Shown in pieces: positions 50,525 to 53,018 of a stretch of 64,000 nt of DNA. A model generated the notes under the pieces. That model was given only the letters and a program-made list of their open reading frames with translations. It was not told the origin of the DNA and did not search any database. The stretch is from Flavobacteriales bacterium (GTDB taxonomy: Bacteria; Bacteroidota; Bacteroidia; Flavobacteriales_D; Sanyastnellaceae). The stretch lies in assembly GCA_018402085.1 (NCBI GenBank), contig JAGYJM010000002.1:1178001-1242000 (forward strand). Reading direction: 5' to 3'. How positions within the stretch are numbered: the first letter of the stretch is position 1; every line of letters begins with the position of its first letter. The translations under genes were made by a program, and so were the position numbers.

Positions 50525-51970
50525 ATGATGTACACCCCACTCAACTCAGCACATTTAGACCAGCTCGCACGTATTGTTGGAGCCGCTCACTGCCTGCATG
50601 ATCCTGAAACACGCAGGGCGTTCGGAAGTGACTACACAGAAGATTTCAACTTTCCGCCTGAAGCAGTAGTCAGTCCGGCAAACACCAAAGAGGTAGCCGC
50701 AGTGATGCGCTATTGTCATGAACATGTGATCCCCGTGACACCGATCGGAGCGCTGACCGGACTCAGTGGCGGGGCGTTGAGTGTTTACGGAGGTGTCGGA
50801 CTTTCACTTCGCCGCATGAACCGAATCATTTCTATCGATACCGATAACCATCAGGTGCTTGTGCAGCCCGCGGTTATTGTGCAGAAGCTGCAGGAGGCCG
50901 TGGAAGCAAAGGGCTTGTATTATGCCCCGGACCCTGCAAGTAGGGGGTCTTCTTTCATTGGAGGCAATCTCGCAGAGAATTCTGGTGGGCCGAGGGCCGT
51001 TAAGTATGGGGTAACCAAAGACTGGGTGCTGAACCTTGAGGTGGTTCTGCCAACAGGAGAAGTATTGCATACCGGCGCAAACACTCTTAAGAACAGCACT
51101 GGCTATAACCTTACACAATTGATGGTGGGGAGTGAGGGCACTTTAGGGATTATAACGCAGGCTACCTTGAAGTTGATTCCAAGACCGCAGAATGATTTGC
51201 TGATGTTGGTGCCGTTTCCGAGTGCTTCTTCAGCATGCGAAGCTGTATCAGCTATTTTTAAAGCCGGTATTACGCCGTCAGCACTCGAGTTTATGGAGCG
51301 TGATGCCGTGCAATACACACTTGACCATACCGATGCTGCCGGTTTAGACCTTCCTGACGACGTAGAGGCCCACTTATTGATCGAGGTTGATGGAAAGCCG
51401 CCGGAGGTGCTGATGCAGGAGTGCGAAACCATCCTGGGCGTGGTTGAATCACACGGCGCCGGTGAGGTGCTGTTTGCAGATGACCAGGCGAAAAAAGACC
51501 AGCTTTGGTACATGCGAAGAAGGGTAGGTGAAGCGGTGAAGCAGCATAGTATATACAAAGAAGAAGATACCGTAGTGCCCCGATACGAACTTCCCGCGCT
51601 TTTGCGCGGTGTAAAGAATATTGGAAGAGCTTATGGCTTCTCTTCAGTGTGTTACGGACATGCAGGTGATGGCAACCTTCATGTGAACATCATTAAAGGT
51701 GAAATCGACGACCGTACCTGGAAAGAAGAACTACCAAAGGCCATTCGTGAGATTTTTGAGCTGGTGAGAGCGTTAGGCGGAACCATTAGCGGAGAGCATG
51801 GCATCGGACTTGTGCAGAAAGATTTTATGGACATTGTTTTCCCTTCCTCTTCACTGGAGCTGATGTGGGCGGTTAAAAAATCATTTGACCCGCGGCTTAT
51901 CATGAATCCCGGCAAAGTTTTTCCGCAACATTTCTGGAATATGCAGGGGGAAGAAGTAACCCCGGAATAA
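50525..51970 (+). CDS. FAD-binding oxidase, GlcD/D-lactate dehydrogenase type
   Basis: A 481-residue flavoprotein of the glycolate oxidase/D-2-hydroxyacid dehydrogenase class. VTPIGALTGLSGGALSVYGG binds the FAD diphosphate, and IGGNLAENSGGPRAVKYG is the second FAD segment. The C-terminal catalytic region has CYGHAGDGNLHVNI and SGEHGIG. The substrate, D-lactate, glycolate or another 2-hydroxy acid, is not decided by sequence alone. ATG codons at 50525 and 50528 are both possible starts. A GGATG hairpin (51590) encodes LPALLRG. Confidence 0.92.
   Translation: MMYTPLNSAHLDQLARIVGAAHCLHDPETRRAFGSDYTEDFNFPPEAVVSPANTKEVAAVMRYCHEHVIPVTPIGALTGLSGGALSVYGGVGLSLRRMNRIISIDTDNHQVLVQPAVIVQKLQEAVEAKGLYYAPDPASRGSSFIGGNLAENSGGPRAVKYGVTKDWVLNLEVVLPTGEVLHTGANTLKNSTGYNLTQLMVGSEGTLGIITQATLKLIPRPQNDLLMLVPFPSASSACEAVSAIFKAGITPSALEFMERDAVQYTLDHTDAAGLDLPDDVEAHLLIEVDGKPPEVLMQECETILGVVESHGAGEVLFADDQAKKDQLWYMRRRVGEAVKQHSIYKEEDTVVPRYELPALLRGVKNIGRAYGFSSVCYGHAGDGNLHVNIIKGEIDDRTWKEELPKAIREIFELVRALGGTISGEHGIGLVQKDFMDIVFPSSSLELMWAVKKSFDPRLIMNPGKVFPQHFWNMQGEEVTPE
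51590..51609 (-). repeat. GGATG hairpin element, copy 15 (inside the oxidase gene)
   Basis: Minus strand: CCGCGC, loop AAAA, GCGCGG, then GAAG in place of GATG. It is antisense to the host, which reads LPALLRG. Confidence 0.8.
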
Positions 51971-51979
51971 TGTTTTGGA

Positions 51980-52010
51980 TTTGCACAAGAAATTTTAGGT
52001 CGTATATTTG
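51980..52010 (+). promoter_or_regulatory. Strong Bacteroidota promoter in an intergenic region
   Basis: TTTG (51980-51983), a 19-base spacer, then TATATTTG (52003-52010): the best promoter match in the window. It lies nine bases after the oxidase stop and drives a terminated region before fabI. Confidence 0.75.
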
Positions 52011-52014
52011 GCTT

Positions 52015-52141
52015 GCCCGGTAGGAGAGAGACCGGGCAATTAGTTGAGATAGGTATGCCTTTCAGGCTACCGTACGAGTAATTTATAGTTTTTAGTTTTT
52101 CAGTTTAAGCCATTGAGTCCCGCAAAAGTGCGGGACTTTTT
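52015..52141 (+). ncRNA. Candidate small RNA or fabI leader RNA
   Basis: A promoter (51980-52010) is followed by a structured stretch and an intrinsic terminator, with no open frame of useful size. Stem 1 is TTGCCCGGT (52013-52021)/ACCGGGCAA (52031-52039), nine perfect pairs, with a purine loop AGGAGAGAG. Stem 2 pairs GGTA and GCC with GGC and TACC (52052-52070). A U/A-rich single-stranded stretch and then the terminator hairpin follow. The RNA would be about 125 bases. It could be independent or an attenuator of fabI, which starts 56 bases after the terminator. Confidence 0.55.
52116..52141 (+). terminator. Intrinsic terminator upstream of fabI
   Basis: AGTCCCGCA (52116-52124) pairs perfectly with TGCGGGACT (52129-52137), loop AAAG, then T's. 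The loop and GC-rich stem resemble the GGATG hairpins but the 3' flank does not. Confidence 0.85.
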
Positions 52142-52196
52142 GGTTGCGGTCATTCGAATTCACTTAGTTTAGCCGCAGAAAACAAACCAAGGAGCT

Positions 52197-53018
52197 ATGG
52201 CACACCAACTCTTGAAAGGAAAGCGCGGAATCATCTTCGGAGCGCTGAACGATATGTCAATCGCATGGAAAACTGCCGAAGCAGCGCACGCGCAAGGAGC
52301 AGAATTCGTGCTGACGAATGCCCCAATAGCCATGCGCATGGGTGAAATCAATAAGCTCGCTGAACAGTGCGGTAACGCGCCGGTCATTGCTGCAGACGCC
52401 ACCAAAGAAGAAGATCTTCAGGCACTCTTTGAGCAGACAATGGAGCACTTCGGGGGTAAAATAGATTTCGTCTTGCACTCAATCGGTATGTCTCCGAATG
52501 TGCGTAAGAAACGCCACTACACCGACCTCAAGTACGACTGGTACCATCAGACACTGGATGTAAGTGCGATGTCGCTGCATAAAACCCTCAGCACGGCACT
52601 GAAGCTGGATGCCCTGAATGAATGGGGCTCTGTGGTGGCGCTGACTTACATTGCCGCCCAGCGCGTTTTCCCTGATTATAACGATATGGCTGATGCGAAA
52701 TCGCTGCTCGAAAGTATCACGCGCAGTTTCGGCTATCACTACGGCGCTCAGAAAAAAGTGCGCATCAATACCATCAGCCAGTCACCTACGGTCACTACGG
52801 CCGGCAGCGGTGTGAAAGGGTTTGACGAATTCATCAGTTTCTCTGACCAGATGAGCCCGCTCGGAAACGCCGATGCCGCGGCCTGCGCTGATTACATCAT
52901 CACCATGTTCAGTGATTACACCCGTTATGTGACCATGCAAAATCTCTTTCACGACGGCGGTTTTAGCAACACCGGTGTGACCGAATCGGTCATCAGTAAG
53001 TTCGGTAACGGCGAATAA
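52197..53018 (+). CDS. fabI: Enoyl-[acyl-carrier-protein] reductase (NADH)
   Basis: Reduces trans-2-enoyl-ACP in fatty acid elongation. This is the FabI-type SDR: GIIFGALNDMSIAWKTAE at the start, HSIGMSP in the middle, and YNDMADAK, the Y-x6-K catalytic motif, at about residues 161-168. The length of 273 residues is normal. It is preceded by the candidate RNA and convergent with the ATP-grasp-like gene, adjacent without a gap. Confidence 0.94.
   Translation: MAHQLLKGKRGIIFGALNDMSIAWKTAEAAHAQGAEFVLTNAPIAMRMGEINKLAEQCGNAPVIAADATKEEDLQALFEQTMEHFGGKIDFVLHSIGMSPNVRKKRHYTDLKYDWYHQTLDVSAMSLHKTLSTALKLDALNEWGSVVALTYIAAQRVFPDYNDMADAKSLLESITRSFGYHYGAQKKVRINTISQSPTVTTAGSGVKGFDEFISFSDQMSPLGNADAAACADYIITMFSDYTRYVTMQNLFHDGGFSNTGVTESVISKFGNGE

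Follow-up and report, generated by a model that had tools for sequence, protein, structure and literature searches.

A candidate small RNA gene with an invariant U-rich core between a glcD-like gene and fabI in Flavobacteriales

Directly upstream of fabI in a Flavobacteriales bacterium (GenBank assembly GCA_018402085.1) lies a short, strongly structured segment, which raises the question whether it encodes a small RNA (sRNA) of its own or serves as a regulatory part of one of its neighbours. It was studied within a stretch of 64,000 nucleotides of contig JAGYJM010000002.1, referred to here as the window; all features described lie on its forward strand. The segment is preceded by a gene for a glcD-like FAD-linked oxidase (50525–51970) with the Pfam domains FAD_binding_4 and FAD-oxidase_C, whose NCBIfam glcD score of 418.4 bits is below the cut-off of 567.9. 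It is followed by fabI for enoyl-ACP reductase (52197–53018; Pfam adh_short_C2).

A promoter, two hairpins, a U-rich stretch and a terminator had been described between these genes in an initial annotation and were all located as stated there. The Bacteroidota promoter consensus is TTTG / TAnnTTTG according to the part of the source that was available (PMC7366714). By sequence reading, a −33 element TTTG was assigned to 51980–51983 and, after a spacer of 19 bases, a −7 element TATATTTG to 52003–52010; the stop codon of the glcD-like gene is 10 bases ahead of the promoter element. The 5′ end of the RNA would lie at approx. 52014–52017. Hairpin 1 (52014–52038) was obtained by folding and shows compensatory changes in relatives. 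Its stem, first described with nine base pairs, has eight in the minimum-energy fold, and the ninth (U52013-A52039) is possible; the loop AGGAGAGAG covers 52022–52030. Hairpin 2 (52039–52082) is imperfect, with a 5′ side (TTAGTTGAG) that is conserved according to the fold and the comparison with relatives. A U-rich stretch at about 52083–52108 is unpaired in the fold and contains the 23-nt core TAGTTTTTAGTTTTTCAGTTTAA (52086–52108), which is invariant and common to the long and short forms of the RNA introduced below. The intrinsic terminator (52109–52144) with ten main pairs and the extended base GCCA/UGGU was recognised by fold, scan and covariation. It ends 55–58 bases before the start of fabI, in agreement with the 56 bases noted earlier, and a probable −7 element of fabI, TAGTTTAG (52165–52172), is located 3′ of it, one letter off TAnnTTTR.

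The folding energy of the RNA was −50.2 compared to −31.6 ± 3.95 for shuffled sequences (z −4.71), and none of 200 dinucleotide shuffles was as good. Simple scans for sigma-70-like sites (2 against 2.8 expected) and terminator-like sites (6 against 2.9 ± 2.0 expected) told little on their own. Of 32 copies, 22 have the Bacteroidota-type motif TAnnTTTR in the 150 bases ahead of the core, compared to 313 of 1600 shuffles. These are 17 of 22 long forms, with the motif −71 to −106 relative to the core, and five of ten short forms. An own promoter, a structured RNA and an intrinsic terminator, as expected for the gene of a trans-encoded sRNA, were found at sequence level.

The RNA was then followed through related genomes by several searches. 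Matches were obtained in 21 out of 60 genomes by DNA search, the own genome included. They were clear in 17 (own included; E of 2e-12 or better) and marginal in G033, G035, G040 and G047. Among the 28 loci of this search, L018–L021 and L026–L028 had no full core and were not taken as copies; L026, excluded as an RNA copy, became a target lead. The exact core used as a pattern matched 31 stretches of named genomes which belong by title to Chryseobacterium gleum (seven), Crocinitomicaceae (one) and Flavobacteriales (23). With up to two mismatches allowed, 199 genomes of the order gave 25 exact, no one-mismatch and four two-mismatch matches. In total, 32 distinct copies with exact core were assembled, comprising 22 two-hairpin long forms and ten one-hairpin short forms. 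As these copies were picked by the exact core, their invariance is exaggerated, and the DNA, mismatch and model searches are less biased in this regard.

A covariance model of core and terminator (the 3′ half) was built from the exact-core copies and hence derived from the same family genomes on which it was scored. It detected 33 copies that scored 81 bits or more; they are spread over 24 of the 114 family genomes and ten of 21 genera. Nine family genomes contain two strong copies; the genome studied here has one. The next-best score was 44.2 bits in the family, and the best one outside was 44.6 bits in a class sample of 295 genomes. As other families reach equal scores, model matches of 30–45 bits were counted as background, and the syntenic second locus was set apart from this background. 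A divergent copy of genus g18 (L156; G035:C8:123795-123852) has a changed 3′ end of the core (TAGTTTTTAGTTTTTCAGTTAAG) and reached 39.5 bits.

The short form carries the same core and terminator at another genomic place, and its upstream genes differ from the glcD-like gene. In eight of the ten short forms (L013, L022, L033, L035, L045, L046, L052 and L055), the upstream product ends with a stretch that was labelled DnaJ-like by eye, followed by ...YEQIKKER or similar. Further elements were observed. A second conserved sRNA-like gene of the same genus and its relatives, found in L148 (2150–2345; G000:C2, match 395756–395815), L149, L150 and L151, consists of a promoter-like TACATTTG, a variable middle and an invariant tail TTATTTAGTATTTTGGTTAAGGTTAAGGC followed by a terminator; similar tails occur in L152, L159 and L160, and G001, G002 and G003 have two weakly similar elements within approx. 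240–470 bases. An RNA-like element of genus g16 (L153 and L154; G017:C15:36296 and G034:C48:26345) has a different hairpin and its own terminator, and ahead of the latter it bears 20 bases that span the end of the core (TTAGTTTTTCAGTTTAAGCC). Phage-borne copies were rejected, as viral contigs gave no exact match to the 23-base core pattern. A conserved small open reading frame was rejected as well, given that by eye the ATG which opens the short frame of this copy is lost in G001, which has TTG at this position, G002 and G016.

The sequence and the loop of hairpin 1 differ between genera while its pairing is kept. Covariation was counted on hand-anchored arms because MAFFT misplaces this hairpin across genera, and the count covers 11 of the 22 long forms, namely, six of seven g9 copies and five copies of g1, g2 and g15. 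The seventh g9 copy, L023, was left out owing to another loop type; its arms and those of L008, L009, L011 and L015 were typed and not counted, and the remaining long forms were not tabulated. In the g9 copies, 56 of 60 cells were paired with their own arms versus 186 of 300 after arms had been exchanged among the copies; the values for the five g1, g2 and g15 copies were 34 of 35 versus 113 of 140. All five of the latter retain the purine loop GAGAGAG, and other genera have other hairpin 1 loops.

Hairpin 2 and terminator were evaluated together in 13 of the 22 long forms (other genera) with the structure taken from the fold of L051, which favours it in the slide control. Here, 93.7% of the cells were paired and eight pairs had changed on both sides, two in hairpin 2 and six in the terminator, a number reached by none of 500 shuffles. 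Because only two of these eight pairs lie in hairpin 2, it is less supported than hairpin 1 and the terminator. For the terminator in 30 distinct rows, 96.2% were paired. Six pairs had changed on both sides, which was reached by 21 of 500 shuffles, and there were 30 double-changed cells versus 12.3 in shuffled rows (0 of 500 as high). The core had a mean unpaired probability of 0.91 in the fold of 52011–52144 and of 0.78 with promoter-side bases added. In 22 longer sequences including the promoter-side bases it was between 0.42 and 0.87, so the predicted openness is not equally clear across relatives and the core appears only partly open in several of them.

The stems are conserved in syntenic relatives, a point on which the initial annotation had let its reading depend. 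Conservation, covariation, the similarly placed promoter element and the terminator all agree with the discrete small RNA proposed there, and judged from the sequences the locus very probably is an sRNA gene. It would give rise to an RNA of about 130 nt (120–140) from its own promoter in the 3′ region of the glcD-like gene, whose terminator it probably uses jointly. Hairpins 1 and 2 would form a scaffold, with hairpin 1 drifting by compensating changes, and the 23-nt core before the terminator would be the functional element common to the copies. Action in trans is likely and would most probably proceed without Hfq, the U-rich core pairing with A-rich stretches of mRNAs. Whether the core is a pairing element or a protein site is evenly balanced on the present data. 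The complete explanation, a discrete trans-acting sRNA whose core pairs with mRNAs and whose best candidate partner is gene X, is given somewhat better than even chances.

Gene X encodes a secreted DUF4412 protein (Pfam). The DNA search revealed 22 contiguous Watson-Crick complements to the core region in its 3′UTR in G016, right after the stop codon; the longest other non-self Watson-Crick run in 400 kb of G016, on both strands, was 12. Orthologues of gene X were found in G001 and G002 by protein search. They contain a 17-base core complement with one G-U which begins with the stop codon, and their sites have TAAAAACTATRAAT in common with the one of G016. When a pattern was made from the G001/G002 site, no equally good second site was found in the five genomes searched, G001 and G002 among them, apart from the RNA genes; the perfect score in G001 and G002 is by construction, as the pattern was designed after the site had been seen. 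With the same pattern, another site in G016 tied with gene X at two mismatches. Concerning the duplex energy, 0 (G016), 4 (G001) and 7 (G002) out of 300 3′UTR shuffles were as good. Gene X of the genome studied here showed only a 10-base match in another register, and 19 of its 300 shuffles did as well; for the orthologues of G007 and G026, genomes without strong RNA copies, 140 and 222 of 300 shuffles were as good.

Long core complements in ten genomes showed no excess, with 34 non-self matches versus 40 of the reversed control, and the G001/G002-site pattern was not enriched in five genomes (64 matches, five of them RNA genes, versus 95 in the control). Duplex energy was dropped as a discriminator, as several further sites in 400 kb attain the −25.4 calculated for the one in G016. 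If G-U pairs are freely allowed, runs of at least 17 occur five times by chance in the 400-kb sample of G016. One further near-complement of the core with one mismatch was seen between a stop codon, which it follows immediately, and a terminator (L193; G016:C83:9070-9086); A-rich sites ahead of terminators may often arise by chance. Six of 114 family genomes yielded gene X at an E of 1e-20 or better, so that it cannot account for a core that is invariant across ten genera. It is a lead for the two genera g1 and g15 and not the explanation of the core. That it is a true partner there is conceivable, at slightly less than even chances. The best candidate target site would be its 3′UTR at or just after the stop codon, where pairing would alter the stability of the mRNA or the mRNA would titrate the sRNA.

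The strongest competing explanation is that the core is a tail bound by an RNA chaperone that is not Hfq, or by a stabilising protein, and that the variable 5′ loops carry lineage-specific seeds. This agrees with a core that stays constant while the loops differ by genus and with the missing enrichment of its complements. The second sRNA-like gene of the same genus, which is built alike and bears a U-rich tail of another sequence, and the 20 bases across the core's end that recur in the g16 element point in the same direction. So does Hfq: PF17209 gave no match in this genome, the one genome of the family in which it was sought, and the same search found it in E. coli and four other of 14 genomes. 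The protein on which an Hfq-dependent sRNA relies was thus not detected in this genome, and together with the invariant U-rich tail this raises the question of what binds the tail. RRM proteins such as RbpB are partners of FopS in Bacteroides in the available part of the report (PMC11697453) and represent the known type of candidate in Bacteroidota. RRM_1 was found in seven of ten RNA-bearing genomes, this one included and G003, G008 and G017 being those without it, and in six of eight others searched. An RRM protein as obligatory partner was rejected, as its distribution does not track the RNA, which speaks against a protein-bound tail, and the long complements in gene X would then be a coincidence. 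This explanation is regarded as rather unlikely. It is doubtful, too, whether the core is a 3′ module that replaces Hfq binding in this lineage, Hfq being undetected in the one genome searched, and that is joined to varied 5′ hairpins and seeds (long form, short form and g16 element) and able to target mRNAs from the stop codon into the 3′UTR as well, in place of the start codon.

In place of a separate trans-acting sRNA, the segment could merely be the 3′UTR and terminator of the glcD-like mRNA which it stabilises. The glcD-like gene indeed precedes 20 of the 22 long forms in the same direction and is, as a correction to the first reading, the stable neighbour instead of fabI; its stop codon lies close to the promoter element (10 bases), and the sRNA terminator would end its transcript, too. 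Against this stand the TAnnTTTR motifs, similarly placed in 17 of 22 long forms, the long forms L012 and L025 without glcD within the locus and the other upstream genes of the short forms. A mere 3′UTR is thus very unlikely.

Read-through control of fabI by a cis-acting leader or attenuator had also been considered possible. fabI follows directly in nine of 22 long forms, and the promoter element of fabI in this copy is one letter off the consensus, which would fit. However, fabI is located approx. 1.3 kb beyond the RNA in L010, L011 and L017 (in L017, an intervening open reading frame was read), and G010 has its RNA copies on contigs other than that of fabI. The gene was not seen at the other ten long forms, some of whose loci end too soon to tell. 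In six of 19 fabI loci fetched (G006, G007, G012, G015, G026 and G033; genera g5, g6, g11 and g14), glcD and fabI are adjacent and so close that the RNA would not fit between them. A constant place of the RNA in the fabI leader, as expected for a cis attenuator, was hence not found. Furthermore, 27 of the available fabI regions were evaluated, and TAnnTTTR precedes fabI in 20 of them versus 106 of 1350 shuffles. Where the RNA is directly upstream, it was present in eight of nine cases, the ninth being this copy. These sequence motifs suggest that fabI mostly has its own promoter 3′ of the RNA terminator. The attenuator was rejected as highly improbable, as there is no fixed link between RNA and fabI, which is regarded as a neighbour for which no control by the RNA is assumed.

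A comparison with Rfam had been proposed at the outset. No match above the gathering threshold of Rfam 15 was obtained in the window or in eight loci, and a permissive search gave no plausible match (best isrJ with 22.9 bits against a threshold of 37), so that a known Rfam family was rejected. Size and strong structure would suit a housekeeping RNA that has diverged, 6S or SRP RNA for instance, which can nevertheless hardly be assumed given the lack of Rfam matches, even with permissive filters, and strong copies in only 24 of 114 family genomes.

The preferred reading, a trans-acting sRNA, can be compared with known systems. Qrr-type sRNAs of Proteobacteria exist in multiple copies and their paralogues have an invariant stretch and a terminator in common. 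They depend on Hfq, and their targets are established. The RNA described here resembles them in the invariant stretch and terminator across paralogues and would differ from them in both of the latter respects.

Closer by lineage are the Bacteroidota sRNAs FopS and GibS. Their host, Bacteroides thetaiotaomicron, has no classical RNA chaperones in the available parts of both reports (PMC11697453, PMC7366714). The FopS members are described there with canonical sigma-ABfr promoters and one segment common to the paralogues, which resembles this RNA by description. They comprise 12 to 15 copies in contrast to one or two here. The seeds of FopS and GibS are reported in these parts to lie in the 5′ part and to pair around start codons, whereas the invariant segment of this RNA adjoins the terminator and its candidate partner site is a 3′UTR. 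An unstructured 5′ end that carries a conserved seed was not found here, as a hairpin is predicted at this end. Rfp18 of Flavobacterium psychrophilum is strongly structured, conserved beyond the species and tied to secreted proteins in the sections of the report at hand (PMC9723704). By this description, it is similar to the present RNA as a flavobacterial sRNA with strong structure, wider conservation and a link to secreted proteins, here a candidate one; it differs in that its pairing was predicted in the third stem-loop. By analogy, this RNA may work like FopS and GibS or like Rfp18. No report of it was among the matches listed for open-licence literature on flavobacterial or fabI-linked sRNAs and on structured RNAs of Flavobacteriales. 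In the few papers examined, as far as their available parts extend, it is seldom that a trans-acting sRNA from Bacteroidota other than Bacteroides has a defined family, an invariant segment and also a candidate partner. The present RNA is of value as it is compact, with covarying hairpin 1 and terminator and a candidate site that can be tested by mutation. On this evidence, it represents a new family of a known kind, best read as trans-acting sRNAs.
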